Below, one piece after another: positions 7,744-39,803 of a stretch of 64,000 nt of DNA. The DNA lies in contig NZ_CANLTQ010000002.1 of assembly GCF_947494025.1 (NCBI RefSeq), positions 186,001 through 250,000 of the forward strand. Reading direction: 5' to 3'. The translations under genes and the position numbers were made by a program. Positions within the stretch are counted from its first letter, which is position 1. Each line of letters starts with the position of its first letter. Under the pieces are notes generated by a model, which did no database searches, was not told the DNA's origin, and worked only from the letters and a program-made list of their open reading frames with translations. Origin of the DNA: an uncultured Jannaschia sp. Its GTDB lineage: Bacteria; Pseudomonadota; Alphaproteobacteria; Rhodobacterales; Rhodobacteraceae.

Positions 7744-8904
7744 ATGCCCGTCCTCAACTCCATCGCCGCGATGGCGCCCGAAATGACGGAATGGCGGCAC
7801 TGGCTGCACCGCAACCCGGAGCTGCTTTTCGACCTGCCGAAGACCTCGGGTTTCGTCGCCGACAAGCTGCGCACCCTCGGGGTGGACGAGATCCACGAGG
7901 GGATCGCCACCTCCGGCATCGTCGCGATCATCGAGGGCCAGGGCGAGGGGCCGACGATCGGCCTGCGCGCCGACATGGACGCACTGCCGATCCGCGAGAC
8001 CTCGGGCGTCGCCCATGCCAGCGAGACGGAGGGCCGGATGCATGCCTGCGGGCATGACGGGCACACGACGATGCTGCTCGGCGCGGCGAAGTACCTCGCG
8101 GAGACGCGCCGCTTCCGCGGCCGTGTCGCGCTGATCTTCCAGCCGGCGGAGGAGGGCGGCGGCGGCGGCGAGGTCATGGTGCGGGACGGCGTGATGGACC
8201 GGTTCGGCATCACCCAGGTCTACGGCATCCACAATACGCCGAACGTCGAGGAGGGGGCGTTCTTCACCGCGCCCGGGCCGCTGATGGCCGCGGTCGACAC
8301 GTTCCATATCGACATCACCGGCAAGGGCGGTCACGGTGCCATGCCGCACGACACGCGCGACCCGATCGCCGCCGCGCTGGGCATCGGGCAGGCGATCCAG
8401 ACCATCGTCAGCCGCAACCACCGCGCCATCGACGACCTCGTCGTCTCGATCACGCAGATCCATGCGGGCTCCGCCGACAACATCATCCCCGGGCTCGCCT
8501 ATATGGGCGGCACGGTCCGCACCTTCGACCCCGGCGTGCAGGACATGGTGGAGCGGCGCCTCGCGGAAGTCGTCGCGGGGCAGGCGGCGGCCTACGGGGT
8601 CGAGGCGACCTGTCGCTACGAGCGGGGCTATCCGGCCACGATCAACGACGCCGAAAAGGCAGGCTTCGCCGCGGAGGTCGCGGCGGACGTGGTGGGCGCG
8701 GACCGTGTCACGGCCGATACCGACCGCGAGATGGGTGCGGAGGATTTCAGCTACATGCTGAACGCCCGGCCCGGCGCCTATCTGTTTCTCGGCACGGGGC
8801 CGGGGCCGGTGCTTCATCACGCCGATTACGATTTCAACGACCGCGTCGCTCCCATCGGCGCGAGCTTCTTCGCGCGCATGGTAGAGACCGCGCAGCCGCT
8901 TTGA
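7744..8904 (+). CDS. M20-family amidohydrolase (hippurate / N-acyl-amino-acid hydrolase type)
   Basis: A 386-residue cytoplasmic metallopeptidase-fold enzyme. The motif HACGHDGHTTML supplies the metal-binding Cys and His, and the catalytic glutamates follow in QPAEEGGGGGEVM. A C-terminal metal ligand sits in MGAEDFSYML. Relatives hydrolyse N-acyl amino acids, hippurate, indole-acetyl amino acids or N-acetyl-diaminopimelate; this sequence belongs to the broad HipO/AbgB-like group and I cannot assign the substrate. The ATG at 7744 follows the ribosome site AAGGAG. The frame is open upstream, but that part antisenses the start of mazG and is not coding. Confidence 0.92.
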   Translation: MPVLNSIAAMAPEMTEWRHWLHRNPELLFDLPKTSGFVADKLRTLGVDEIHEGIATSGIVAIIEGQGEGPTIGLRADMDALPIRETSGVAHASETEGRMHACGHDGHTTMLLGAAKYLAETRRFRGRVALIFQPAEEGGGGGEVMVRDGVMDRFGITQVYGIHNTPNVEEGAFFTAPGPLMAAVDTFHIDITGKGGHGAMPHDTRDPIAAALGIGQAIQTIVSRNHRAIDDLVVSITQIHAGSADNIIPGLAYMGGTVRTFDPGVQDMVERRLAEVVAGQAAAYGVEATCRYERGYPATINDAEKAGFAAEVAADVVGADRVTADTDREMGAEDFSYMLNARPGAYLFLGTGPGPVLHHADYDFNDRVAPIGASFFARMVETAQPL

Positions 8905-8914
8905 CGTCCATGGC

Positions 8915-9456
8915 CTGACCGGAACGAAAGGCGGCGCGCGGCGCGGGCGTGCGCCAGGCCGGGCTCGTCTCTTCCGTCGTGTCCTGCATGCTGAAGGCGC
9001 CGGACAATCCCGACGGCGTGGACGCCGCGGTGTTCAGGCAGATGGAAGGACGGGATCAAGGCCGACCGGCCGGGCTTCCTTCGGGACTTCCTCAGGCACC
9101 TCTAGGGCACCGGCTTCCGTTCGCATCCGGTCTCCGACGGTATTCTGCACTGGTCGTGGATGATGGCGATGATGGCGAGCCCGAAGGCCACGCCCGACTG
9201 CATCGACGCCTTCGGAAAGACCGGTTTCCGCCCCGACATGGCGGCCGTCACGATGTTCACGCCGGTCGTGCGCGGCACCGGCGACACGACCGCTCCGATC
9301 GACCCATAGGGTCGGGCGGCGACAAAGGCCGTCGCGCGGGTGGGGTTCAAGGAGTATGACGATGCGCCGCATGAACTGCCGGCCACGAATGCGGAGCAGC
9401 CGACGCAGGACATGCTCGCCTTTCTCGATGGCCAGGACATCGGCGCGCGTCTGGTC
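8915..9456 (+). pseudogene. Decayed alpha/beta-hydrolase (non-haem haloperoxidase-like), C-terminal part only
   Basis: Translation in two frames gives a recognisable C-terminal half of a chloroperoxidase-type alpha/beta hydrolase. Frame one from about 8949 reads RQAGLVSS..CMLKAPDNPDGVDAAVF. A +1 shift near 9049 leads to GIKADRPGFLRDFLRHL, stop TAG at 9103, then GTGFRSHPVSDGILHWSWMM, a VVRGTGDTTAPID segment that carries the acid-residue loop, stop TAG at 9307, and finally EYDDAPHELPATNAEQ with the catalytic-His region APH. The N-terminal half, including the serine nucleophile, is missing. One frameshift, two stops and a truncation make function very unlikely. Homology is inferred from remembered family patterns. 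Confidence 0.75.
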
Positions 9457-27529: not shown

Positions 27530-28834
27530 ATGCGCAGCTACTTCTCCGAAATCGAACCCCTCCGCTACGACCCCGAAGCGGACGACCTGTCGTTCCGGCA
27601 CTACGACCCCGACCGCGAAGTCGCCGGCAAGCGGCTGCAGGATCAGCTGCGATTCGCGGTGGCGTACTGGCACAGCCTCGTCTGGGACGGCTCCGACCCG
27701 TTCGGCGGCGGCACGTTCCAGCGCCCGTGGTTCCCGCACGACACGATGGAGCATGCGAGGGCCAAGGCGGACGCGGCCTTCGAGATGTTCCGCATCCTCC
27801 GCGTGCCGTTCTTCGCCTTCCATGACCACGACGTGCGCCCCGAGGGGGGCAGCCTGCAGGAAAACCACCGCCGTCTGAACGAGATCGCCGACGTGTTCGA
27901 GGCGAAGATGGCTGAGACGGGCGTGGGCCTGCTTTGGGGAACGGCCAACCTCTTCACGCATCGCCGCTTCATGTCGGGCGCCGCGACCAACCCGGACCCG
28001 GACGTCTTCGCCTGGTCGGCCTCGTCCGTGCGGGCCTGCCTCGAGGTAACGCACCGCCTCGGAGGTCGGAACTACGTGCTCTGGGGCGGGCGCGAGGGCT
28101 ACGAGACGCTGCTCAACACCGACCTGAACCGCGAGCTCGAGCAGATGGGCCGGTTCCTGTCGATGGTGGTCGAGCACAAGCACAAGATCGGGTTCGAGGG
28201 TCAGATCCTGATCGAGCCGAAGCCGCAGGAGCCGACGAAGCATCAGTACGACTACGACGTCGCCACGGTCTACGGCTTCCTCCGGCGCTTCGGGCTCGAG
28301 AACGAGGTGAAGCTCAACATCGAGCAGGGCCACGCGATCCTCGCCGGCCACAGCTTCGAGCACGAGATCGCGCTCGCGCAGACGCTGGGCGTGTTCGGCT
28401 CCATCGACATGAACCGCAACGATTACCAGTCCGGCTGGGACACCGACCAGTTCCCCAACAACGTCGCCGAGGTTGCGCTGGCCTATTACGAGATCCTGCG
28501 CGGCGGCGGGTTCGGCCAGGGCGGCACGAACTTCGATGCCAAGCTGCGGCGGCAATCGCTCGACCCCGTGGATCTGATCGCGGCGCATGCCGGGGCGATG
28601 GATGTCTGCGCTCGCGGGCTCGAGGCGGCGGCGCGGATGATCGCGGACGACGCGCTCGAGGGGCCGCGCCGGGACCGCTACGCCGGTTGGGAGACGGAGA
28701 CAGCCCGCGCCATGCTCGCCCCGGGCGCGAGTCTCGCCGATATCGCCGACCGGGCCGAGACTTCCGGCCTCGATCCCGCACCGCGGTCGGGCCGCCAGGA
28801 GATCCTGGAGAACGTCGTCAACCGCTACGTCTGA
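27530..28834 (+). CDS. xylA: Xylose isomerase
   Basis: A 434-residue TIM-barrel enzyme that converts D-xylose to D-xylulose. Family marks are the metal/catalytic regions [25 protein letters not shown], the metal-ligand stretch [24 protein letters not shown] and DTDQFP. The residues [21 protein letters not shown] close the C-terminus. The start at ATG 27530 has GAGGA nearby. No xylulokinase gene, xylose transporter or xylose regulator adjoins it, so it is either a solitary gene or serves a pathway encoded elsewhere. The last 10 bp overlap the convergent receiver gene. Confidence 0.96.
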
Positions 28835-29304
28835 GCCCGCGCGGCCGGGCTTTCGCAGCCCAGCCGCGTCGCGAGGTCGGACCGCATGAAGAAGCCGTTC
28901 GGCGCGGCGAGAACCGGCGGCGGCGTCCTGATCCCGCCGTGCAGAAAGGCCAGCACGGCCTCGATCACGCCGCTCGAGAAGGGCTTGGGCACCACGCCGT
29001 CGCCCCGCTCGATCTCCGGCAGGAGCAGCCGGGGGTTGGCGGTCACGAACACGATCAGCGCCTCGGGCCAGGTCGCGCGGATATAGTCCGCAGCGTCGAG
29101 CCCGCAGGACTTCTCCGCGAGTTGCAGGTCGACGAAGGCCAGATCGACATGGAGGTCGGTATCGATGGCGCAAAGCGTGCGGACGCTCGAGGCATCGGCG
29201 ACCATCCGGTGCCCCTCCGCCTCGATCATCAGCTCCAGATCCATCATGATGAGGGTCTCGTCCTCGACGACGACGATCTGCAGGCCCGTTTCATCCTGCG
29301 TCAT
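28825..29304 (-). CDS. Single-domain response regulator paired with the LOV kinase
   Basis: A 159-residue receiver with no output domain. Glu14/Asp15 form the acidic pocket, Asp59 (FVDLQL) is the likely phospho-acceptor and Lys107 (VPKPFS) the conserved lysine. About 40 residues after the receiver are of no known domain. Two starts are possible: ATG 29304 (used here; GAGGGG upstream) and ATG 29322, which overlaps the kinase stop as ATGA. The tight coupling to the LOV kinase suggests a LovK/LovR-like pair, in which the single-domain regulator acts as target or phosphate sink. Confidence 0.88.
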
Positions 29305-29318
29305 CGAAGCTGTGCCCC

Positions 29319-30443
29319 TCATTCTGCCGGTTCGGACCGAAACCGGGTTCTGCTCATGGTCCCGTCCGCAGAACTAGTCCATTCCGTCGTCCCGTCGAGC
29401 TGACGCGACAGCCGATTGACGAGGACGAGGCCGAGCGACCGGCCGCAGGGACGCGGGTCGAAACCCGGTCCGTCGTCCGTCAGTTCCACCACGACCGCGC
29501 CGCCTGTGCGTTTCGCGGTGATCGTGAGCCGCCCGGAGCGGCCGTCCGCGAAGGCGTGCTTGACGACGTTGGTCAGGAGTTCGTTGACGAGGAGGCCGAG
29601 CGCGGTGGCCTTCGCCGCCTCGATATCCACCGCCTCGATACGGTCGACGACCTCGATATCGTGCCGGCCCGAAACCGCGAGGACGTCGGAGACGAGGCCT
29701 CGCAGGAAAATGCCGACGTCGAAGCGGCGGATATCCGGCGTCTGGTGCAGCGTCCGGTGGACGGTGGCGAGCGCGTCGACCCGCTCGAGCATCGTTCCGA
29801 GCGTGCGCGCGAGCTCCGGTTCCCCGACCGAATTCGCCTGCAATCGCAGGAGCGAGCCGATCATGGTGAGGTTGTTCTTCACCCGGTGATCGACCTCGTC
29901 GAGCAGGATCGTCTTCTCCTCGAGGGCGCGTTTGTTCTCCGCGAGGGCATCCTTGAGCTCCCGCGTGCGCGCCTCGACCTCCGCCTCCACGAGCGCTTTC
30001 TGCCGCGCGACCTTCTCCTGCGCCTCGACCCGGTCGGTCACGTCGATCTGCGAGGCAAAGAAGAACTGCACCTCTCCGTCGTCGTTGTGGACCGGCCCGA
30101 CGAAGAGCGCGTTCCAGAACGGCGTTCCGTCCTTGCGGTAGTTCAGAAGGTCGACCTGGATCGCCTCCTCCCGCGCGATCGCCTCCCGCAGCTTGCGCAC
30201 CTTCTCGGGATCGGTGTCGGGACCCTGCAGGAAGCGGCAGTTGCGGCCCATCACCTCCTCACGGTCGTAGCCGGTCAGGGTGAGGAAGGCGTCGTTCGCG
30301 AAGACGATCGGAATGTCGTCCTGGCGCGGGTCGGAGACGAGCATCGGCATGCGCGTCGATCGCACCGCCGCCGCGAACGGATCGCCGCGGCCCTGCGCAT
30401 GGGGCACGTCGTCGGTCTGGTGCCAGTCATCGTCCGTCGTCAT
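29319..30443 (-). CDS. LOV-domain blue-light sensor histidine kinase (HisKA_2 type)
   Basis: A soluble 374-residue kinase. The N-terminal PAS/LOV domain (about 22-140) carries GRNCRFLQG, where Cys69 is the residue that forms the flavin adduct under blue light. The adjacent YRKDGTPFWN and the closing FFFASQIDVTDR fit FMN-binding LOV domains. A coiled linker leads to the phospho-acceptor His186 in LLDEVDHRVKNNL, a HisKA_2 signature. The ATPase core has LLVNELLTNVVKHAF and DDGPGFDP. ATG 30443 is chosen since the residues encoded upstream are not LOV-like. It should switch with light and control its neighbouring receiver, and possibly a general-stress partner elsewhere. Confidence 0.92.
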   Translation of the reverse strand: MTTDDDWHQTDDVPHAQGRGDPFAAAVRSTRMPMLVSDPRQDDIPIVFANDAFLTLTGYDREEVMGRNCRFLQGPDTDPEKVRKLREAIAREEAIQVDLLNYRKDGTPFWNALFVGPVHNDDGEVQFFFASQIDVTDRVEAQEKVARQKALVEAEVEARTRELKDALAENKRALEEKTILLDEVDHRVKNNLTMIGSLLRLQANSVGEPELARTLGTMLERVDALATVHRTLHQTPDIRRFDVGIFLRGLVSDVLAVSGRHDIEVVDRIEAVDIEAAKATALGLLVNELLTNVVKHAFADGRSGRLTITAKRTGGAVVVELTDDGPGFDPRPCGRSLGLVLVNRLSRQLDGTTEWTSSADGTMSRTRFRSEPAE

Positions 30444-30566
30444 TCGCGAATTGCCCCGTTCGTTCCGGCATTTACCTATCGAAGACCGGCCGCGCGCCGC
30501 AACGCGCATGCGGCCCCGGCCGCCGGTCGAACGGAAGATTAGCGTTCCGCGTCACGGTTTCGACCG

Positions 30567-31469
30567 CTACCGTGGCCGGAACATCGGTGTCGCCCTCGCC
30601 AGCCTTTCGAGCGCGTCGAGCCGCGCGGCGCTCGGCCCCGGTGCGAAGCGCTGCACCTCGGCCACCAGCGCCTCCACCAGAACGAGCAGCGCCACCGTCG
30701 AATCCCAGCTCGACTGCGTCTCGATCGACGCGCGCAGCGAGTGCGCGGCGTATCGCTCCACGGGGGAGCCCCAGATGTCCGTGAGCAACATGATCCGCGC
30801 CGACCGGCCGGCCGCATGACGGGCCAGCGTCTCGATCTCGCGGTCGTAGCGGCGGATGTCGAACAGGACGAGCGTGCTCGCGGGCCCCGTGTCGATCACG
30901 GTCTGCGGCCAGAGCGCTGGCGAGGATTCGAGGATGCGCACATCGGCGCGGATCAGGCGCAGGTGATCGGCCAGATACTGCGCCAGCGACCGTGTGATGC
31001 GGCCGCCGGCGATATGCACCGTCCGTTCGGGGGCCGCCAGGTCACGGGCGATGGCGTCGAAGGCCGCGACGTCGAGCCGCCGGAGCGTCCGGTCGATGTT
31101 GCGCGCCGCCCGCTGCGCGAAACGGGTGACGACATGGGCGTCGGGCGCGACCGGCGGCGCCGCCTCGAGCTTGGCGAGCGGCTGCTGCATGCGGGCGGCG
31201 AGATCGGCGCGGATCGCGTCCTGCAACGCGGGAAAGCCGTCGAAGCCCAGCTTGCGGGCGAGGCGGATCACCGTCGGCGTGGAGACCGCGGCGATCTCCG
31301 CCAGGCGCGTGATGGATTGCAGGCCCGAAAGGAGCGAGTCCTCCTTGAGCACTTCCGCCAGCTTGCGTTCCGCGGCGGTCAGCACACCGCGGCGTTCGTC
31401 CAGAAGGTCGCGGACGAGTGGACGGTCGGCGGGCAGGCCGTCGGGCGGGTCGTCGCGGCGATCGGTCAA
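30567..31469 (-). CDS. RpiR/MurR-family transcriptional regulator with SIS domain
   Basis: A 300-residue regulator. The N-terminal HTH_6 domain (about 10-85) contains STPTVIRLARKLGFDGFP as recognition region. The C-terminal SIS domain (about 125-260) starts VHIAGGRITRSLAQYLADHL and would bind a phosphosugar or similar effector in canonical relatives. The start is TTG 31469: a strong GGGAGGGA ribosome site sits just upstream, while the frame open to 31742 runs through the divergent gene. It is divergent from the TRAP/GS/dehydrogenase operon, and the 18-bp palindrome in the shared gap is its likely operator. Confidence 0.9.
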   Translation of the reverse strand: MTDRRDDPPDGLPADRPLVRDLLDERRGVLTAAERKLAEVLKEDSLLSGLQSITRLAEIAAVSTPTVIRLARKLGFDGFPALQDAIRADLAARMQQPLAKLEAAPPVAPDAHVVTRFAQRAARNIDRTLRRLDVAAFDAIARDLAAPERTVHIAGGRITRSLAQYLADHLRLIRADVRILESSPALWPQTVIDTGPASTLVLFDIRRYDREIETLARHAAGRSARIMLLTDIWGSPVERYAAHSLRASIETQSSWDSTVALLVLVEALVAEVQRFAPGPSAARLDALERLARATPMFRPR

Positions 31470-31506
31470 GGCGTCCCTCCCTCCCGACGGGCCGCCCGGT
31501 CGGATC

Positions 31507-31534
31507 TTGACACGCGGGGAAGCCCTGTAATGAT
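31507..31534 (+). promoter_or_regulatory. Promoter of the TRAP/GS-like operon
   Basis: A perfect -35 box TTGACA (31507-31512) is followed after 16 bases by AATGAT (31529-31534). The first coding gene begins 34 bp downstream. The -10 lies inside the 18-bp palindrome, so a bound repressor would block polymerase. Confidence 0.6.
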
Positions 31535-31542
31535 GATTACAG
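31525..31542. promoter_or_regulatory. 18-bp palindromic operator, likely for the RpiR regulator
   Basis: CTGTAAT-GATG-ATTACAG is a perfect 7+4+7 inverted repeat in the gap between the divergent RpiR gene and the operon it faces. It covers the -10 region of the operon promoter. TGTAAT/ATTACA half-sites are a common form for RpiR/GntR-size dimeric regulators; assignment to this RpiR is by position. Confidence 0.7.
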
Positions 31543-31567
31543 AACAGGGACGGAGCGGGCAACGCGA

Positions 31568-32314
31568 ATGAGGGACGAATGGACCGCCGTCGAGGTGATC
31601 CGGCCGAAAGGGGCGGGTCCGGCCGTGCTCGTCTGCGAGCACGCCTCCGCCCGGATTCCGTCCGAACTCGGCGATCTGGGTCTCTCGGCGGCGTCGCGCC
31701 ATTCGCACGCGGCCTGGGACATCGGCGCGCGCGACGTGGCACTGACGATGTCGGCGCTTCTCGACGCCCCGCTGGTGGCCGGCGCCATCTCGCGCCTGGT
31801 CTACGATTGCAACCGTCCCGAAACCGCGCCCGATGCGATCCCGTCGCTGAGCGAGCGCCATCCCGTTCCCGGCAACGGGAGCCTCGACGCAGGGGGCCGC
31901 CGGGACCGTCGCCTGCGCGTCCACGACCCGTTCCACGCGGCGCTCGATGCCGTTCTCGACGCGCGCACCGACGGACCGGCGCTGGTGACGGTCCATTCCT
32001 TCACGCCGGTCTTCCACGGCCTGCCGCGCGACGTGGAGCTGGGCTTCCTGTCGCATTCCGACGCCTCCCTGGCGCGCGCCGCCTTGGCCAAGGTCGGTCC
32101 CCGGCATCGCTCGGCGCTCGACGCGCCCTACGGGCCGGGCGACGGCGTGACCTACACGCTCGCCCGCCACGGCGAGGCGCGCGGCCTGCCGGCGCTGATG
32201 ATCGAGATTCGCAACGACCTGATCGACCGGCCCGAGACGGCCGCGCAGATGGGCGCGCATCTGGCCGGGATGCTGCTCCGCTCGCTCGATGCGCTCGACG
32301 AGGCGGCCGCGTGA
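31568..32314 (+). CDS. N-formylglutamate amidohydrolase-family hydrolase
   Basis: A 248-residue metal-dependent hydrolase of the FGase family. Conserved marks are VLVCEHASARIP near the N-terminus, HSHAAWDIGARDVA, SRLVYDCNRP, VTVHSFTPVFHG and LMIEIRNDLI. Classical members release formate from N-formylglutamate in histidine breakdown, but no hut genes are here. The gene is first in an operon with a TRAP transporter, a GS-like ligase and two dehydrogenases. I therefore infer it cleaves a gamma-glutamyl amide or a related N-acylglutamate intermediate and returns glutamate. That substrate is inference; family membership is clear. Its stop overlaps the next GTG start (GTGA). Confidence 0.88.
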   Translation: MRDEWTAVEVIRPKGAGPAVLVCEHASARIPSELGDLGLSAASRHSHAAWDIGARDVALTMSALLDAPLVAGAISRLVYDCNRPETAPDAIPSLSERHPVPGNGSLDAGGRRDRRLRVHDPFHAALDAVLDARTDGPALVTVHSFTPVFHGLPRDVELGFLSHSDASLARAALAKVGPRHRSALDAPYGPGDGVTYTLARHGEARGLPALMIEIRNDLIDRPETAAQMGAHLAGMLLRSLDALDEAAA

Positions 32315-32856
32315 TCCGGGCCGCCCGAGCCTATGTCGCGGTCATGGACCGCGTCAGCCTCGGGCTCGGGCGCGTGATGATGTGGGGCATCTTCGCGCTC
32401 ATGGGCGTGCTTCTGTGGTCCACCGCGTCGAAGGCCCTCGGCGCGCCGTCCCTCTGGACGCTCGAGACTGCGCAGTTCGCGATGATGGCATACTTCATGC
32501 TGGGCGGGCCCTACGCGCTTCTGATCGGCGCGAATGTCCGGATGGACCTGTTCTACGGAGAGCTCTCGCCCCGGCGCAAGGCGGCGACCGATTGCGTGAC
32601 CGTGATCTTCCTGCTGGTCTATCTCGGCACCCTGATGTGGGGCGGGGTCGAGTCCACCATCTACGCCTTCCAGTACGGCGGCGAGCGCAGCCCGTCGGCC
32701 TGGCGCCCCTACATGTGGCCGATAAAGGTGGTGATGTGCACGGGCATCGCGCTGATGCTGCTGCAGGCGTTGAGCGAACTCGCCAAGGACGTCCTGTTCC
32801 TCGCGACGGGCCGTCCCGACCGCACCGCCACCGAAGGGCCTGCCGATGCCCTATGA
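32311..32856 (+). CDS. dctQ: TRAP transporter small permease (DctQ family)
   Basis: A 181-residue membrane protein with about four hydrophobic segments (near 15-40, 47-68, 90-110 and 135-155), as expected for DctQ. The region TLETAQFAMMAYFMLGGPYALLIG and the following VRMDLFYGELSPRRKA match the conserved small-subunit pattern. It pairs with the large permease encoded next. Start GTG 32311 overlaps the preceding stop as GTGA, and its own end overlaps dctM by 11 bp. Confidence 0.92.
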   Translation: MIRAARAYVAVMDRVSLGLGRVMMWGIFALMGVLLWSTASKALGAPSLWTLETAQFAMMAYFMLGGPYALLIGANVRMDLFYGELSPRRKAATDCVTVIFLLVYLGTLMWGGVESTIYAFQYGGERSPSAWRPYMWPIKVVMCTGIALMLLQALSELAKDVLFLATGRPDRTATEGPADAL

Positions 32857-34174
32857 GATGATCGCCGCGCTGATGTTCGCGAGCATGATGCTGCTGCTTC
32901 TAACGGGGCAGCGCGTCTTCGGCGCGATCGGCTTCGTCGCGGTCGTGTCGGCGGTCCTCCTTTGGGGCGACCGGGGCGGCTACGACATCGGCTTCGCGGC
33001 GGCAATCAAGGTGATGCGGTGGTATCCGCTGCTGACGCTGCCGATGTTCGTGTTCATGGGCTACGTGCTCTCGGAATCGAAGATCGCCGACGACCTCTAC
33101 CGCATGTTCCACGTCTGGATGGGCGGCATTTCCGGCGGGCTCGCCATCGGGACGATCGGGCTGATGGTGCTGGTCTCGGCGATGAACGGGCTGTCGGTTG
33201 CGGGCATGGCGATCGGGGCGACCATCGCGCTGCCGGAGCTGCTCAAGCGGAACTACGACAAGCTGATGGTGACGGGGGTGATCCAGGCCGGTTCCTCCCT
33301 CGGCATCCTTGTGCCGCCTTCGGTCGTGCTCGTTCTTTACGCGATGATCGCGCGGCAGCCGGTGGGACAGCTCTGGCTCGCCGGCGCGGTGCCGGGACTG
33401 ATGATGGCGGGGCTCTTCATCGCCTACATCGCGCTGCGCTGCCGGCTGAACCCGTCGCTCGGACCCGTGCTGGACCCGGCCGAGCGGGCGGCGATCCCCA
33501 TGGCGGAAAAGCTGCGCCTGCTGCGCTCGGGCCTGCTGCCGGTGGGCATCTTCGCGGTGATGATGGTGCCCTTCGTCAACGGCTGGACCTCGCTCGTCGA
33601 GAGCTCCGCCATCGGCGCGCTCGCCGCGCTCCTCGCGGCCTTCGCCAAGCGGCGCATGACCTGGCCGGTCTTCGAGACCTGCCTGCGCCAGACGCTCGGC
33701 ATCACCTGCATGTTCATGTGGATCATCCTCGCCGCGCTGGCCTTCGGGGCCGTCTTCGACGGGCTCGGCGCGGTGAAGGCGATCGAGGATCTTTTCACCG
33801 ATCAGTGGGGCCTGTCGCCCTGGGTCATCCTGATCCTGATGCAGCTGAGCTTCATCCTGATGGGGACGTTCCTCGACGATACGGCGATGCTGGTGATCGT
33901 CGCGCCGCTCTACGTGCCGCTGGTGGGGGAGCTCGGCTTCGACCTGATCTGGTACGGCGTGCTCTACACGATCACCTGCCAGATCGCGTACATGACGCCG
34001 CCCTTCGGCTACAACCTGTTCCTGATGCGCGCGATGGCCCCGCCCGAGATCGGCATCCGCGACATCTACCGTTCCATCGTGCCCTTCGTCGCCGTGATGA
34101 TCCTCGCGCTCGCGCTGGTGATGATCTTTCCCCAAATCGCGCTCTGGCTGCCGAACCGGGTCTACGGCGGATGA
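32846..34174 (+). CDS. dctM: TRAP transporter large permease (DctM family)
   Basis: A 442-residue membrane protein with about twelve hydrophobic segments that forms the sodium-coupled translocation path. Typical DctM stretches are LLTLPMFVFMGYVL, the NGLSVAGMAIGATIALPELLK block, GVIQAGSSLGILVPPSVVLVLY and the C-terminal YMTPPFGYNLFLM. It begins inside the dctQ gene and is followed after 70 bp by the binding-protein gene. Confidence 0.95.
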   Translation: MPYEMIAALMFASMMLLLLTGQRVFGAIGFVAVVSAVLLWGDRGGYDIGFAAAIKVMRWYPLLTLPMFVFMGYVLSESKIADDLYRMFHVWMGGISGGLAIGTIGLMVLVSAMNGLSVAGMAIGATIALPELLKRNYDKLMVTGVIQAGSSLGILVPPSVVLVLYAMIARQPVGQLWLAGAVPGLMMAGLFIAYIALRCRLNPSLGPVLDPAERAAIPMAEKLRLLRSGLLPVGIFAVMMVPFVNGWTSLVESSAIGALAALLAAFAKRRMTWPVFETCLRQTLGITCMFMWIILAALAFGAVFDGLGAVKAIEDLFTDQWGLSPWVILILMQLSFILMGTFLDDTAMLVIVAPLYVPLVGELGFDLIWYGVLYTITCQIAYMTPPFGYNLFLMRAMAPPEIGIRDIYRSIVPFVAVMILALALVMIFPQIALWLPNRVYGG

Positions 34175-34244
34175 GCGGCCGCACATTAACCAGCGGCCGG
34201 ACGAACCGGCCCGTCCCAACCCAGTCCAGACAGAGGAGACGACC

Positions 34245-35282
34245 ATGACCTCAAGACGCAAGTTCCTGCGTGGCGCCGCGCTCGCCGCGCCCGCGACCCT
34301 CGCCACGCCCGCGCTCGTGCGCGCGCAGGAGGCGATCCAGTGGCGGTTCCAGACCTATGCCGGCGCCGCCCTGGGCGAGCAGGTGACCAAGCCCGTCATC
34401 GACTACATCAACGCCAATTCGAACGGCGAGCTGCAGGTGGAGCTGTTCTACGCCGACCAGATCGTGCCCACGGGCGAGCTGTTCCAGGCGCTCCAGCGCG
34501 GCACCATCGACGGGGTGCATTCCGACGACGACTCGATGGCCTCGCCCACGCCCACCCGGCAATTCGGCGGCTACTTCCCCTTCGCCACGAAGCACATCCT
34601 CGACGTGCCGGTGCTCTTCAACCAGTACGGGCTCGCCGATATCTGGCGCGAGGAATACGGCAAGGTCGGGGTCCAGTGGCTTTCGGCGGCGGGGCAGGAC
34701 CCGTGCAACTTCAACACCACGCGCGAAATCACCAGCGTGTCGGATCTCGACGGGCTCAAGCTCTACACCTTCCCGACGGCCGGCCGCTTCCTGTCGCAGT
34801 TCGGCGTGGTGCCGGTGAACATCCCCTACGAGGATGCCGAAGTGGCGGTGCAGACGGGTGAGCTCGACGGCATGGCCTGGTCGGGCATCACCGAGGACTA
34901 CACCGTGGGCTGGGCCGACGTGACCGACTACTTCCTCACGAACAACATCTCCGGCGCCTGGATCGGGTCGTTCTTCGTCAACCAGGAGCGTTGGAACGAG
35001 CTGCCTGAGCACCTGAAATCGGTCGTCATGGCCGGGATCGAGGCGGGCCACACCTATCGCAACCAGTGGTATTGGGGCGGCGAGGCGCGGCTCCGCGCGC
35101 AGGGCGACAAGCTGGAGCTGCGTTCCGTGCCCGCGGAGGAGTGGATGCAGGTGGAGGAAGCCGCAAAGAAATTCTGGGACGAGGTCGCGCAGGAGGGCGA
35201 GGTGCAGCAGCGCATCGTCTCGATCTTCCGCGACTACAACCAGGTCATCAACCAGGCCGGCGCGCCCTACACCAACGGCTGA
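34245..35282 (+). CDS. dctP: TRAP transporter substrate-binding protein (DctP family)
   Basis: A 345-residue periplasmic protein. The N-terminus SRRKFLRGAALAAPA is a twin-arginine signal with cleavage near VRAQ/EAIQWRF. The body has family features such as GELQVELFYADQIVPTGELFQ and a mostly aromatic pocket. In most TRAP binding proteins a conserved arginine in the strand after DLKGLK salt-bridges a substrate carboxylate. Here the aligned segment is DLDGLKLYTFP, with Tyr174 at that place. The ligand may therefore lack a carboxylate or be held differently. The context points to an amine or amino alcohol (inference). A start at ATG 34245 follows AGGAGA. Confidence 0.92.
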   Translation: MTSRRKFLRGAALAAPATLATPALVRAQEAIQWRFQTYAGAALGEQVTKPVIDYINANSNGELQVELFYADQIVPTGELFQALQRGTIDGVHSDDDSMASPTPTRQFGGYFPFATKHILDVPVLFNQYGLADIWREEYGKVGVQWLSAAGQDPCNFNTTREITSVSDLDGLKLYTFPTAGRFLSQFGVVPVNIPYEDAEVAVQTGELDGMAWSGITEDYTVGWADVTDYFLTNNISGAWIGSFFVNQERWNELPEHLKSVVMAGIEAGHTYRNQWYWGGEARLRAQGDKLELRSVPAEEWMQVEEAAKKFWDEVAQEGEVQQRIVSIFRDYNQVINQAGAPYTNG

Positions 35283-35289
35283 AGCCACC

Positions 35290-35317
35290 GGGGGCGGCCC
35301 CGCCGCGGGTCGCCCCC
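35290..35317 (+). terminator. Hairpin between the binding-protein and GS-like genes
   Basis: GGGGGCGGCCC and GGGTCGCCCCC pair over 11 positions (one G-U) around a 6-base loop, 7 bp after the TRAP binding-protein stop. The tail is only GTTTC. It likely attenuates readthrough or protects the upstream mRNA, giving more binding protein than downstream enzymes. Confidence 0.6.
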
Positions 35318-35340
35318 GTTTCAAACTCAAGGAACATTCC

Positions 35341-36705
35341 ATGCCCGGCACCCTGACCCTCGACGGCCTCCGCAAGCTGGCCGATTCCGGGGAGATCGAT
35401 ACCGTTCTCGTCGCGCTCGTGGACATGCAGGGGCGGCTCATGGGCAAGCGCTTCCATGTCACGAACTTCCTCGAGCACGGCGTCGAGGAAAGTCATTGCT
35501 GCAACTACCTCCTCGCCACGGATCTGATGATGGCGACGCCCGAGGGTTACGCTGCGACAAGCTGGCGGCAGGGTTACGGCGACTACCTGCTGCGGCCCGA
35601 CCTCGACACGCTGCGTCCGGTGCCGTGGCTTCCCGGCACCGCGCTGGTCCTTTGCGACGTGCTCGATCACCACGACCATTCGCCCATCGCTCACTCGCCG
35701 CGGCAGATGCTGAAGGCGCAGGTCGCCCGGCTCGCGGAGATGGGCTATTCCGCGACCATGGCGACCGAGCTCGAGTTCTTCCTGTTCGAGGGGGATTACC
35801 GCAGCCTGCAGAAGGGCGGCTACCGCAACCTCGTCCCGCTCTGCGGCTTCAACGAGGATTACAACCTCTTCCAGACAACCAAGGAGGAGCCGATCCTCCG
35901 GCCGCTGCGCAACAATCTCGTCGCCGCCGGCATTCCGGTGGAAACAACCAAGGGCGAGGCGGAGCGCGGCCAGCACGAGCTCAACATCCGCCACGCCCCC
36001 GCGCTCGACTGCGCCGACAACCACACGATCGCGAAGCAGGCGATCAAGGAGAGCGCCTGGGCGGCGGGCTGCTCGGCCTCCTTCCTGCCGAAATGGGCGT
36101 CCGACAAGGTGGGTTCGGCGGGGCACGTCCACATGTCGCTCCTGAAAGACGGCGCGTCGGCCTTCTACGAGGAGGGCGCGGATTACGGCATGTCGCCCCT
36201 GATGCGGCATTTCATGGCGGGCGTCCTCGAATACGCGCCGGACCTGACCTTTTTCCTGGCCCCCTACGTCAACAGCTACAAGCGCTTCGCCTCGGGCACC
36301 TTCGCGCCCACGCGCACCGTTTGGTCGGTGGATAACCGCACTGCCGGATTCCGGCTGTGCGGGGCGGGCACGAAGGGCGTGCGGGTGGAGTGCCGGGTGC
36401 CCGGGTCCGACATGAATCCCTATCTCGCACAGGCCGCGCTCCTCGCCGCGGGCATCGCGGGCATCGAGGCGGAGCTGCCGCTACCCGATCCGACGAAGGG
36501 CGATGCCTACGAGACGAAGGGCGAGGCCGAGATTCCGCGCACGTTGCGCGCGGCGACGGAGACCCTGCGCGGCTCGAAGATGCTGCGGGCGGCGATGGGC
36601 GACGCGGTGGTGGACCACTATACCCGCGCCGCCGAATGGGAACAGGAAGAGTTCGACCGCGCCGTCACCGACTGGGAGATCGCGCGCGGCTTCGAGCAAG
36701 CTTGA
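35341..36705 (+). CDS. Glutamine-synthetase-family ligase (gamma-glutamyl-amine synthetase type)
   Basis: A 454-residue member of the GS superfamily (GlnT/PuuA/IpuC-like) rather than housekeeping GlnA. Motifs include ATELEFFLF (metal-binding Glu), KGEAERGQHELNIRHA, GSAGHVHMSL, VNSYKRFASG and RVECRVPGSDMNPYL. The N-terminal DMQGRLMGKRF is characteristic of GS-like amine ligases. The tyrosine adenylylation loop of GlnA is not evident. Such enzymes use ATP to join glutamate through its gamma-carboxyl to putrescine, ethanolamine, isopropylamine or similar amines. The neighbours, an alcohol and an aldehyde dehydrogenase, favour an amino alcohol. Confidence 0.9.
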   Translation: MPGTLTLDGLRKLADSGEIDTVLVALVDMQGRLMGKRFHVTNFLEHGVEESHCCNYLLATDLMMATPEGYAATSWRQGYGDYLLRPDLDTLRPVPWLPGTALVLCDVLDHHDHSPIAHSPRQMLKAQVARLAEMGYSATMATELEFFLFEGDYRSLQKGGYRNLVPLCGFNEDYNLFQTTKEEPILRPLRNNLVAAGIPVETTKGEAERGQHELNIRHAPALDCADNHTIAKQAIKESAWAAGCSASFLPKWASDKVGSAGHVHMSLLKDGASAFYEEGADYGMSPLMRHFMAGVLEYAPDLTFFLAPYVNSYKRFASGTFAPTRTVWSVDNRTAGFRLCGAGTKGVRVECRVPGSDMNPYLAQAALLAAGIAGIEAELPLPDPTKGDAYETKGEAEIPRTLRAATETLRGSKMLRAAMGDAVVDHYTRAAEWEQEEFDRAVTDWEIARGFEQA

Positions 36706-36715
36706 GGGAATGACC

Positions 36716-38086
36716 ATGTTGCAATGCATCTCGCCGGTCGACGGATCGGTTTACGCGGAGCGTCCAGCACTGAGCTTCGACGCGGCCCGCGCGGCCGTGG
36801 ACGAAACCCGGCGCGCGCAGGCGGACTGGGCCGCACGGCCCCTCGACGAACGCGTCCGGCTCGTCCTCGCGGGGATCGAGGCGGTGGGCGCGATGAACGA
36901 CGAGATCGTGCCGGAGCTCGCCTGGCAGATGGGCCGCCCGGTCCGCTTCGGCGGCGAGTTCGCGGGCTTCGCCGAGCGCGGCCGCTACATGGCCGACATC
37001 GCCGCCACGGCGCTTGCCGATATCGAGGTCGGCTCGGACAACAAGTTCCACCGCTACATCCGGCGCCTGCCCTGGGGCGTGGTCCTTGTCGTGGCGCCCT
37101 GGAACTACCCCTACATGACCGCGATCAACACCGTCGCGCCGGCGCTCATCGCGGGCAATGCCGTGATCCTGAAGCACGCCACGCAGACGCTTCTCGTGGG
37201 CGAGCGCATGGCGCGGGCCTTCCACGCGGCGGGCGTGCCGGAAGCGGTGTTCCGCAACGTCTTCCTCGACCACGACACGACCGATGCGCTCCTGCGTGCG
37301 CGGACCTTCGACGCGGTGAACTTCACCGGCTCCGTCGCGGGCGGGCAAGCGATGGAGCGCGCGGCGGCGGGCACCTTCGTCCCCGTCGCGACCGAGCTTG
37401 GCGGCAAGGATCCGGGCTACGTGATGGAGGACGCGGACGTCGCCGCGGCCGTGGACACGCTGATGGACGGGGCGATGTTCAATTCCGGGCAATGCTGCTG
37501 CGGAATCGAGCGCATTTACGTCCATGCCCGGCATTACGACGAGTTCGTCGAGCGCGCCGTGGCCTGGGCGCGGGCCCAGAAGCTGGGCGACCCGCTCGAC
37601 CCCGAAACGACGATCGGGCCGATGGCCCATGCCCGCTTCGCCGCGCATGTCCGCGCGCAAACCGAGGCGGCGGTCGCCGCCGGTGCGACGGCGCATCTGG
37701 AGCCCGATCCGGCCGATGACGGCGGCGCGTATCTGGGCCCGCAGGTGCTGACCGGCGTGACCCACGACATGGACGTCATGCGGGAGGAGAGCTTCGGCCC
37801 CGTCGTCGGCATCATGCGGGTCGCGGACGACGACGAGGCGGTGCGCCTGATGAACGACTCCCGCTACGGCCTGACGGCGAGCCTCTGGTCGGCGGACGAG
37901 GCGCGCGCCGCCGCGCTCGGCGACCGGATCGAGACGGGCACCGTGTTCCTCAACCGCGCCGACTACCTCGACCCCGGCCTCTGCTGGACCGGCTGCAAGG
38001 ATACCGGCCGGGGCGGGGGGCTCTCGGTGATCGGCTATCACAACCTCACCCGACCGAAATCCTACCATCTGAAGGTCTCCGCATGA
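36716..38086 (+). CDS. NAD(P)-dependent aldehyde dehydrogenase
   Basis: A 456-residue enzyme of the ALDH superfamily. Visible are the cofactor motif VVAPWNYP (about 125-132), FTGSVAGG (203-210), Glu227 in ELGGKDP as the general base, and the nucleophile region NSGQCCCG with catalytic Cys261 by the GQxC pattern. The ending ESFGPVVGIM is regular. It is probably the second oxidation step of the pathway, converting an omega-aldehyde made by the neighbouring Fe-ADH to the acid. ATG 36716 has GAGGG 7-8 bp upstream; ATG 36710 is an alternative. It overlaps the next gene (ATGA). Confidence 0.92.
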   Translation: MLQCISPVDGSVYAERPALSFDAARAAVDETRRAQADWAARPLDERVRLVLAGIEAVGAMNDEIVPELAWQMGRPVRFGGEFAGFAERGRYMADIAATALADIEVGSDNKFHRYIRRLPWGVVLVVAPWNYPYMTAINTVAPALIAGNAVILKHATQTLLVGERMARAFHAAGVPEAVFRNVFLDHDTTDALLRARTFDAVNFTGSVAGGQAMERAAAGTFVPVATELGGKDPGYVMEDADVAAAVDTLMDGAMFNSGQCCCGIERIYVHARHYDEFVERAVAWARAQKLGDPLDPETTIGPMAHARFAAHVRAQTEAAVAAGATAHLEPDPADDGGAYLGPQVLTGVTHDMDVMREESFGPVVGIMRVADDDEAVRLMNDSRYGLTASLWSADEARAAALGDRIETGTVFLNRADYLDPGLCWTGCKDTGRGGGLSVIGYHNLTRPKSYHLKVSA

Positions 38087-39228
38087 CGCTCTCCGGCCGC
38101 TGGTCCTATCCCAACGCCATCCGCTTCGGCGCCGGCCGCATCGCGGAGCTGCCGCAGGCCTGCATCGAGGCGGGCATGCAGCGCCCGCTTCTCGTGACCG
38201 ACCGGGGCCTCGCGAAGCTCGACGTGACGGCGCGCGCGCTCACGATCCTGGAGGAGGCGGGTTTCGCGCCCGCGCTCTTCGCCGAGGTCGATCCGAACCC
38301 GAACGAGGTGAACCTCGCCGAGGGCGTCGCGGCCTATCGTGCGGGAGAGCATGACGGGGTGATCGCCTTCGGTGGCGGTTCGGGCCTCGACCTGGGCAAG
38401 ATGGTCGCCTTCATGGCGGGCCAGATCCGTCCGGTCTGGGATTTCGAGGACGTGGCCGACTGGTGGACGCGCGCCGACAGCGACGCGATCGCGCCCATCG
38501 TGGCCGTGCCGACCACGGCGGGCACCGGTTCGGAGGTGGGCCGCGCGAGCGTCATCACGAATTCGCGGACGCACGAGAAGAAAATCATCTTCCACCCGAA
38601 AATCCTGCCGGCCATCGTGCTGGCCGACCCGGAGCTGACGGTGGGGATGCCGCCGCACATCACCGCGGGAACGGGGCTCGACGCCTTCGCGCATTGCGTC
38701 GAGGCCTTCTCCTCGCCGCATTACCACCCGATGAGCCAGGGCATCGCGCTCGAAGGGATGCGGCTGGTAATCGAACATCTGCCGCGCGCCTATGCCGAAC
38801 CGGACGATCTGGAAGCGCGCACCCACATGATGTCGGCCGCCTCCATGGGCGCGGTCGGGTTCCAGAAGGGGCTGGGCGCGATCCATGCGCTGAGCCATCC
38901 GATCGGGGCCGTCTTCAACACCCATCACGGCACCACCAACGCCGTCTGCATGCCTGTCGTGCTGGACTTCAACGCGGACGCGATCAGCGACCGCTTCGAT
39001 CGTGCCGCCCCCTATCTCGGCATCGAAGGCGGGTTCGACGGGTTCCGCGCCTTCGTGGACAGGTTCAACGACGGCTTCGGAGTGCCGAAGCGCCTGCGCG
39101 ATCTCGGGGCGGATCCTGCGCGGATCGACGAGCTCGTGCCGATGGCGTTGCGCGATCCGTCCTGCGGTGGCAACCCGGTCGAGCTGACCGAGGCGGGGCT
39201 GCGCGATCTCTTTGAAAGGGTGATCTGA
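38083..39228 (+). CDS. Iron-containing (group III) alcohol dehydrogenase
   Basis: A 381-residue NAD(P)-dependent dehydrogenase. The dinucleotide motif is GGGSGLDLGK (97-106). Metal ligands by the FucO pattern are Asp200, His204, His268 and His282, in TAGTGLDAFAHCVEA and IHALSHPIGAVFNTHHG, with spacings identical to FucO. All four are kept, so it should be active. It is last in the operon and shares ATGA with the ALDH gene. The expected job is oxidation of a primary alcohol, perhaps of a gamma-glutamylated amino alcohol, to the aldehyde used by the ALDH. Confidence 0.93.
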   Translation: MTLSGRWSYPNAIRFGAGRIAELPQACIEAGMQRPLLVTDRGLAKLDVTARALTILEEAGFAPALFAEVDPNPNEVNLAEGVAAYRAGEHDGVIAFGGGSGLDLGKMVAFMAGQIRPVWDFEDVADWWTRADSDAIAPIVAVPTTAGTGSEVGRASVITNSRTHEKKIIFHPKILPAIVLADPELTVGMPPHITAGTGLDAFAHCVEAFSSPHYHPMSQGIALEGMRLVIEHLPRAYAEPDDLEARTHMMSAASMGAVGFQKGLGAIHALSHPIGAVFNTHHGTTNAVCMPVVLDFNADAISDRFDRAAPYLGIEGGFDGFRAFVDRFNDGFGVPKRLRDLGADPARIDELVPMALRDPSCGGNPVELTEAGLRDLFERVI

Positions 39229-39284: not shown

Positions 39285-39803
39285 ATGAACTGGTCCGAGA
39301 TGTTCTTTCAAAGCTGGAGCGGGATCGTGCGAACGGTCATCGTGGGCACGCTCGCCTATGCGTTCCTCGTTTTCTCGCTCCGGGTCTCGGGCAAGCGGAC
39401 GCTCGCGAAGCTGAACGCCTTCGACCTCGTCGTGACGGTCGCCTTCGGCTCCACGCTGGCCTCCATCCTGCTGAGCGAGAGCGTCGCGCTGGCCGAGGGG
39501 GTGACCGCGCTCGTCCTTTTGATCGTGCTGCAATATGCGGTGACCACGCTTTCGGTGCGCTCCGAGCGCTTCGCTCGCGCCGTCCGCTCCGAGCCGACGC
39601 TGCTGCTGCGGGACGGTGTGCCGCTGCCCGACGCGATGCGCCACGCCCGGGTCACGAAGGCAGAGCTCGAAACGGTGGTGCGGACCGAGGGGCAGCGCGG
39701 GCTCGAGGATATTTCCGCGGTGATCCTCGAATCCGACGGCTCCTTCTCGGTGATCGACGGAGGGCAGTCGAAGCGAAGCCCCCATTCCGACGCCGGAACC
39801 TGA
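39285..39803 (+). CDS. DUF421 (YetF-like) membrane protein
   Basis: A 172-residue membrane protein. Three N-terminal hydrophobic segments (about 10-80) include LRVSGKRTLAKLNAFDLVVTVAFGS, the family hallmark. A small soluble domain of about 90 residues follows (ARAVRSEPTLLLRDGVPLPDAM, then the KAELETVVRTEG stretch). YetF-type proteins are widespread; in Bacillus some influence spore or membrane properties, but no general function is settled. A good ribosome site (GGAGG) precedes ATG 39285. It may be read with the operon upstream (56 bp gap) or independently. Confidence 0.9.
   Translation: MNWSEMFFQSWSGIVRTVIVGTLAYAFLVFSLRVSGKRTLAKLNAFDLVVTVAFGSTLASILLSESVALAEGVTALVLLIVLQYAVTTLSVRSERFARAVRSEPTLLLRDGVPLPDAMRHARVTKAELETVVRTEGQRGLEDISAVILESDGSFSVIDGGQSKRSPHSDAGT

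Follow-up and report, generated by a model that had tools for sequence, protein, structure and literature searches.

A predicted eto operon for ethanolamine import and gamma-glutamyl breakdown in an uncultured Jannaschia sp., with a candidate operator for its RpiR regulator

Open reading frames and Pfam matches delimited eight genes at positions 30567-39228 of the window, by which we mean the whole 64,000 nt stretch of Jannaschia sp. DNA analysed: an rpiR gene lies divergent from a block of seven structural genes (Table 1). The start codons of all eight genes were chosen by hand. For rpiR the TTG start was taken because the longer GTG start in the list of open reading frames would overlap the divergent gene; the start of the TRAP Q gene overlaps the stop of the FGase-like gene. 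All eight proteins gave Pfam matches over the curated cut-off (HTH_6 plus SIS, FGase, DctQ, DctM, DctP, Gln-synt_C, Aldedh and Fe-ADH), confirming every gene of the set facing RpiR that a first-pass annotation had described from the DNA letters.

Table 1. Genes and predicted regulatory elements of the locus, in window coordinates.
Feature	Position	Strand	Remarks
rpiR	31469-30567	-	TTG start, 300 aa; RpiR/MurR family; HTH_6 + SIS; positional counterpart of MED193_10021
Promoter-like site TTGACA-16-AATGAT, for structural genes	31507-31534	+	10/12 matches
Perfect dyad CTGTAATgatgATTACAG, candidate RpiR operator	31525-31542	.	Covers -10 hexamer
FGase-family hydrolase	31568-32314	+	Pfam PF05013 FGase; predicted gamma-glutamylglycine amidohydrolase (GGAH)
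TRAP Q small permease (EtoV)	32311-32856	+	DctQ; GTG start; gene order as published
TRAP M large permease (EtoW)	32846-34174	+	DctM; gene order as published
TRAP P solute-binding protein (EtoX)	34245-35282	+	DctP; predicted ethanolamine receptor
GS-like ligase	35341-36705	+	Gln-synt_C; predicted ethanolamine gamma-glutamylase (ETAGA)
Aldehyde dehydrogenase	36710-38086	+	Aldedh; predicted to convert gamma-glutamyl-aminoacetaldehyde to gamma-glutamylglycine (GAADDH)
Iron-containing alcohol dehydrogenase	38083-39228	+	Fe-ADH; predicted gamma-glutamylethanolamide dehydrogenase (GETADH)

Using the TRAP P protein alone as query, 286 stretches were recovered, and in 58 of the best 80 that were inspected the eight genes occur in identical order and orientation. 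Because these loci were found via TRAP P alone and still keep all eight genes, the block arrangement is not due to chance. Of 20 stretches drawn from genomes within the same family, 13 likewise had the complete series; in this set at least L099 appears to repeat L007 from the 80, and L088 and L089 derive from a single contig and have equal values. Twelve stretches of both sets together contain the TRAP genes but not the three enzymes downstream of them (L013, L017, L025, L027, L057 and L060 among the 80; L092, L093, L096, L097, L102 and L103 among the 20). While L060 is cut by a contig end and L093 stops 1.8 kb past TRAP P, the other ten cases have no such explanation, implying that transporter and enzymes are not inseparable. 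The aldehyde dehydrogenase is missing in L010 and L014 of the 80 loci.

Taken alone, the Pfam names would permit an ordinary glutamine synthetase, a formylglutamate deformylase and a carboxylate TRAP transporter that merely lie side by side with no joint function. Apart from the gene order kept in 58 of the 80 loci, the results with the GlnA and HutG models argue against this. The GS-like ligase reached the cut-off of neither the GlnA nor the type III GS nor the gamma-glutamylputrescine synthetase model, and the FGase-like protein scored 18.6 bits on the HutG N-formylglutamate deformylase model TIGR02017 (cut-off 278.75). The aldehyde dehydrogenase reached the cut-off of none of the NCBIfam families listed, 25 of 45, and the Fe-ADH that of none of 15. 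The nearest solved structure to the ligase is 5dm3 (E 1e-198), which we take to be the neighbouring Chromohalobacter protein, and the only solved relative found for the FGase-like hydrolase was 2odf, Atu2144.

A diamine or monoamine gamma-glutamyl route of the Puu or Ipu type would be consistent with the score of the ligase on the gamma-glutamylputrescine synthetase model NF045547 (E 1.9e-63). However, the 214.7 bits obtained there lie under the cut-off of 650, and among its Pfam matches the operon has no flavin (FAD) oxidase or amine dehydrogenase between the ligase and aldehyde dehydrogenase steps; the Fe-ADH is present instead.

The TRAP receptor also speaks against both readings. Its best solved match was Csal_0678 (4uab/4xf5) with an E value of 5e-142, the next best TRAP receptor reaching only 6e-16, and the identity to Csal_0678 in the structure-search alignment is about 55%. 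In the printed alignments the equivalent of Arg-147 is missing from the window's receptor: Tyr174 aligns with the carboxylate-binding Arg that two other TRAP receptors have there, and with a Phe of Csal_0678. At this position the TRAP P alignment has Tyr in all 84 relatives of at least 75% identity and Phe in all 10 relatives of 55-75% identity. The structure model of the receptor was poor (mean pLDDT 55.4), probably owing to an alignment limited to close relatives; Foldseek and VIA run with this model ranked 4uab and 4xf5 first, and from this result the entry name and the identity were used, not the fold. With these results taken together, a Puu or Ipu route is highly improbable, the receptor being of the ethanolamine type, and the assumption of no joint function has hardly any credibility, the receptor having no carboxylate-binding Arg.

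From its sequence, EtoX of the window is predicted to be an ethanolamine receptor that could also accept other small amino alcohols. The gamma-glutamyl mechanism might accordingly be kept with alaninol, serinol or 3-aminopropanol as main substrate and ethanolamine as a secondary one. Such a preference would agree with a receptor lacking the carboxylate-binding Arg and with the second structure of the Chromohalobacter receptor, 4xf5, which presumably holds an alaninol ligand. Oxidation of alaninol to gamma-glutamylalanine is possible, but without support here. Moreover, for EtoX of Phaeobacter sp. MED193, the counterpart encoded in an operon of identical gene order, ethanolamine is the ligand that was measured, with a Kd of 7.9 uM; in the available part of that report the analogues that were not bound are phosphorylethanolamine, phosphocholine and two glycerol phosphates, and include no other amino alcohols (PMC10132767). 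Csal_0678 is likewise described, in a passage of one paper, as binding ethanolamine without an Arg-147 equivalent. We therefore regard another main substrate as unlikely, and ethanolamine, first named in the first-pass annotation, as the best-supported substrate in view of the published relatives and the sequence.

The first-pass annotation had held that this set with a TRAP importer was not described. This does not stand, since the same gene order is found in the accessible part of a study of the MED193 eto operon, MED193_10021-10056, five proteins of which were raised on phosphorylethanolamine (Westermann et al. 2023, PMC10132767). By its locus tags, that operon has the identical eight genes in the identical order RpiR, GGAH, EtoV, EtoW, EtoX, ligase, ALDH and alcohol dehydrogenase; it belongs to another species and is likened to the window by gene order. 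The eto enzyme names given there are predictions, the figure being titled 'Predicted', and the excerpts consulted on this type of operon report no enzyme assay. The Chromohalobacter Csal_0678 system, from a gammaproteobacterium unlike the window, resembles it in receptor and presumably in ligase, the receptor, as far as the consulted excerpts show, likewise having no carboxylate Arg. Citing papers, in the portions available, credit the ethanolamine pathway of Chromohalobacter and Agrobacterium to Vetting et al. 2015 (PMC10132767, PMC4646407, PMC5812351), and ethanolamine breakdown by way of glutamylation had previously been put forward both in Chromohalobacter salexigens and in Streptomyces (PMC6529630, in part). 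The GlnA4 pathway of Streptomyces coelicolor shares with the pathway predicted for the window a gamma-glutamylethanolamide ligase, two dehydrogenases and a formylglutamate-amidohydrolase-family protein proposed for the final step; in the sections at hand, however, the legend names a short-chain dehydrogenase where the window has an Fe-ADH. The 'putative ethanolamine transporter' listed there is not termed TRAP, unlike that of the window (Krysenko et al. 2019, PMC6529630). Thus, gene set and pathway are already known, and the window operon is a further member of the published eto system, adding one more genome to the carriers of this published route for ethanolamine from phospholipids.

Altogether, we are highly confident that the window contains an eto operon for ethanolamine import and gamma-glutamyl breakdown under control of RpiR. 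Inferring that the window proteins act as their relatives do, we envisage the individual enzyme steps, the operator site and the direction of control as follows. EtoVWX would import ethanolamine, which the GS-like ligase would join with glutamate, at the expense of ATP, to gamma-glutamylethanolamide. The Fe-alcohol dehydrogenase would oxidize this product to the aldehyde and the aldehyde dehydrogenase would convert the aldehyde to gamma-glutamylglycine, from which the FGase-family hydrolase would release glycine and recycle glutamate. Glycine probably enters the glycine cleavage system; the GcvP glycine decarboxylase was found in the genome. RpiR most likely represses the operon via the dyad lying over the -10 of the structural promoter, from which ethanolamine or an intermediate of the pathway would release it. 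The Eut route (EutBC ammonia lyase, microcompartment) shares its substrate with the window operon, but differs from the gamma-glutamyl route in its chemistry; a search of the own genome (215 contigs, completeness 100) gave no match to EutB, with the E. coli control positive. The earlier reading as a gamma-glutamyl amino-alcohol pathway composed of ligase, alcohol and aldehyde dehydrogenases, FGase-family amidase, TRAP importer and RpiR is backed by published relatives and sequence, so that a reader with the sequence only had arrived at the right pathway.

The promoter-like site for the structural genes was found once, compared to a mean of 0.0 in 50 shuffles. TTGAC is present on the structural-gene strand in all 68 rpiR-FGase gaps, including that of the window, which is 98 bases long. 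A dyad TGTA-N8-TACA, which overlaps the -10 of this promoter, is found again where relatives have a similar RpiR, its distance from the -35 box taking three fixed values (+19, -25 and -54). These offsets and the 45% identity line for RpiR were set after inspection of the data, and the loci are related, so that the shuffle counts do not represent independent trials. The stricter form TGTAAT-N4-ATTACA occurs in 1 of the 68 gaps, namely the window's own, and only the shorter form is common to relatives. The motif is a candidate RpiR operator. The available portions of the published accounts of the eto operon and related pathways contain no TGTA-N8-TACA operator, and literature searches combining RpiR with ethanolamine listed no further paper about this operon, judged by title. 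We propose tentatively, and at somewhat less than even likelihood, that the eto RpiR acts as a repressor and that its SIS domain responds to ethanolamine or a gamma-glutamyl intermediate, not a phosphosugar. With the dyad at these three offsets, blocking of the promoter and binding upstream of it would then have evolved on a shared frame. The predicted operator provides a simple, testable handle on the switching of the eto operon. Its scope is limited to one RpiR group, since exact TGTA-N8-TACA was present in only 1 of 35 gaps where RpiR is less than 45% identical; the best dyad in a scan of these gaps was TGTGA-N8-TCACA (8 of 35).

The eight genes and the layout proposed by the first-pass annotation proved real, with only small corrections of start codons, that of TRAP Q lying so that the gene overlaps the stop of the hydrolase gene. 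Genes within the block overlap or lie close together, the widest spacings, of 70 and 58 bases, being on either side of TRAP P. All eight proteins matched Pfam above cut-off, and among the NCBIfam matches listed a single cut-off was passed, that of the general TRAP receptor model TRAP_S1 (56.8 versus 50 bits). The ligase matched the GlnA, type III GS and gamma-glutamylputrescine synthetase models below their cut-offs, as did the FGase-family hydrolase with HutG; no NCBIfam cut-off was reached by the aldehyde dehydrogenase among the matches listed (25 of 45 families) or by the alcohol dehydrogenase (15 of 15 families). This is as expected for enzymes specialised away from the functions that these models name. 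Immediately 3' of the operon lies a gene for a YetF/DUF421 membrane protein. A PAS-HisKA_2/HWE sensor kinase gene adjoins a small response-regulator-like ORF; the kinase contains GRNCRFLQG, which we take to be the LOV blue-light motif.

The operon, real and read correctly, is already known, and the small testable addition made here is a prediction on its regulation. It had been claimed that such a set with a TRAP importer is not described. This does not hold, as excerpts of Westermann et al. 2023 (PMC10132767) present the same genes in the same order as the eto operon of Phaeobacter sp. MED193: RpiR, gamma-glutamylglycine amidohydrolase, EtoV, EtoW and EtoX (TRAP Q, M and P), ethanolamine gamma-glutamylase, aldehyde dehydrogenase and alcohol dehydrogenase. 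According to these excerpts, five of the proteins of this set were raised on phosphorylethanolamine, the Kd of EtoX for ethanolamine is 7.9 uM, and work in C. salexigens and A. tumefaciens C58 is credited to Vetting et al. The Streptomyces ligase GlnA4 was shown to make gamma-glutamylethanolamide, as stated in excerpts of Krysenko et al. 2019 (PMC6529630), which propose matching later steps, give the last one to a formylglutamate-amidohydrolase-family protein and refer to the Chromohalobacter route as an in silico prediction. Between them, these excerpts (PMC10132767, PMC6529630) hold every part of the earlier hypothesis, down to the TRAP importer and an FGase-like amidase for the last reaction, and both accounts give the enzyme steps beyond the ligase as predicted.

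The best solved relative of the window's TRAP receptor (4uab/4xf5, E 5e-142; runner-up E 6e-16) is Csal_0678 of Chromohalobacter salexigens, with 54-55% identity (Foldseek). Excerpts of PMC4646407 describe Csal_0678 with an ethanolamine ligand and without an equivalent of Arg-147, and ethanolamine is called a surprising TRAP ligand, owing to its positive charge, in an excerpt of PMC5812351. In the alignments, two other TRAP receptors have the arginine where the window receptor has Tyr174 and Csal_0678 a Phe. In an alignment of 101 rows, Tyr occupies position 174 of the window receptor and of 84 of 84 relatives with at least 75% identity, and Phe that of 10 of 10 relatives with 55-75% identity; for the six relatives below 55%, the five rows listed all have Phe, the sixth, L094, not being among the rows listed. 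Other gene content agrees with this pathway: EutB gave no match in the window's own genome (E. coli control positive). Glycine decarboxylase GcvP is present there, and we infer that operon-derived glycine passes to the GcvP route.

In the comparative-genomics check proposed with the hypothesis, the gene set was mostly kept together. Relatives of the TRAP P protein, searched alone, are encoded in 286 stretches of the genome collection, and 58 of the best 80 loci carry all eight genes in the window's order and orientation (tblastn, E 1e-10). In 10 of the 22 incomplete loci the block is cut or bordered by a contig end (L008, L012, L023, L036, L037, L038, L045, L060, L067, L080). By tblastn, the two Sulfitobacter operons L010 and L014 are complete except for an aldehyde dehydrogenase match between ligase and alcohol dehydrogenase, in place of which an enzyme coded elsewhere may act; missing are the three downstream enzymes in L013 and L025, regulator and hydrolase in L048, L049 and L062, the alcohol dehydrogenase in L054 and the regulator in L058. 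Only the transporter was found in L017, L027 (which begins close to a contig end) and L057. In L057, from Ruegeria atlantica, TRAP M and P share 86-87% identity with those of the window, and there is no enzyme match within 10 kb.

A TRAP P relative at E 1e-60 or better is encoded by 108 of the 198 genomes of the family to which the window belongs, the window's genome among them. Among 20 of those places in 19 genomes, hand-picked to spread over identity and not wholly independent of the best 80 (identities of L099 equal those of L007), 13 have the eight genes in order, one the transporter and three enzymes, and six the transporter only. Nor are two copies in one genome (L088 and L089, G184:C1) clearly separate: they lie on a single 4.0 Mb contig, about 17 kb after its start and 6 kb before its end, agree in identities and positions, and may be one stretch that was duplicated in assembly where a circle closes.

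Coordinates of features in the window and in related loci
Feature	Position	Strand	Remarks
Sensor kinase gene	28825-30509	-	
rpiR start	31469		TTG, most likely
Promoter-like site	31507-31534		TTGACA-16-AATGAT with 10 of 12 matches (50 shuffles: mean 0.0); lies in the 98 bases that separate rpiR from the hydrolase gene
Dyad, candidate operator	31525-31542		CTGTAATgatgATTACAG; covers the -10 of the promoter-like site
TRAP Q start	32311		GTG
YetF/DUF421 gene	39285-39803	+	
TRAP M and P of L057	8048-11038		
TRAP receptor of L093, L096, L097, L102	near 8000-9040 in each		about 53% identity to the window's

With at most one mismatch, the pattern TGTARTGATNNYTACA has a single place in the window's genome, the operon gap. 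We compared 68 such gaps, from the window and the 67 of the 80 loci having both rpiR and the hydrolase gene, each taken as the interval between the two tblastn matches and thus possibly including a few coding bases. TGTA-N8-TACA occurs in 24 of the 68 (100 shuffles: mean 0.07, maximum 1), while the same arms at any other spacing from 0 to 19 occur in at most one gap each. The dyad tracks the regulator, being found in 23 of 33 gaps with an RpiR at least 45% identical (window included) versus 1 of 35 others. TTGAC is present on the coding strand of all 68 gaps, and TTGACA in 61. When one mismatch was allowed, a site lay +19, -25 or -54 from a TTGAC in 32 of the 33 gaps of the first group (exception L006) and in 1 of the 35 of the second, the 45% cut and the three offsets having been set post hoc, after the data were seen, and the sequences being related. 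Sites at +19 coincide with the -10, and so would fit a repressor. From these sequence patterns, we propose TGTA-N8-TACA as a candidate operator for the RpiR proteins of the first group.

Six receptors are 52-54% identical to the window's (L093, L094, L095, L096, L097, L102). Those of L094 (G003), inside a full eight-gene operon, and L095 (G141), with ligase and both dehydrogenases, are equally distant (53-54%) yet accompanied by operon enzymes, which implies that identity alone is no substrate marker. At positions that hold one residue in 95% or more of the 95 rows with identity above 55%, the other four carry substitutions, including Asp95Glu, Asp96Ala and Asp218Ala. L097 and L102, the loci run against NCBIfam, reached no equivalog cut-off among the matches listed. 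An FAD oxidoreductase adjoins the receptor in L093, L097 and L102, its best NCBIfam match in the latter two being a glycerol-3-phosphate oxidase model; these two also have a glycerol-kinase-like gene, and a DeoR-type regulator adjoins in L096 and L102. The TRAP importers of these four loci may carry glycerol or another neutral polyol.
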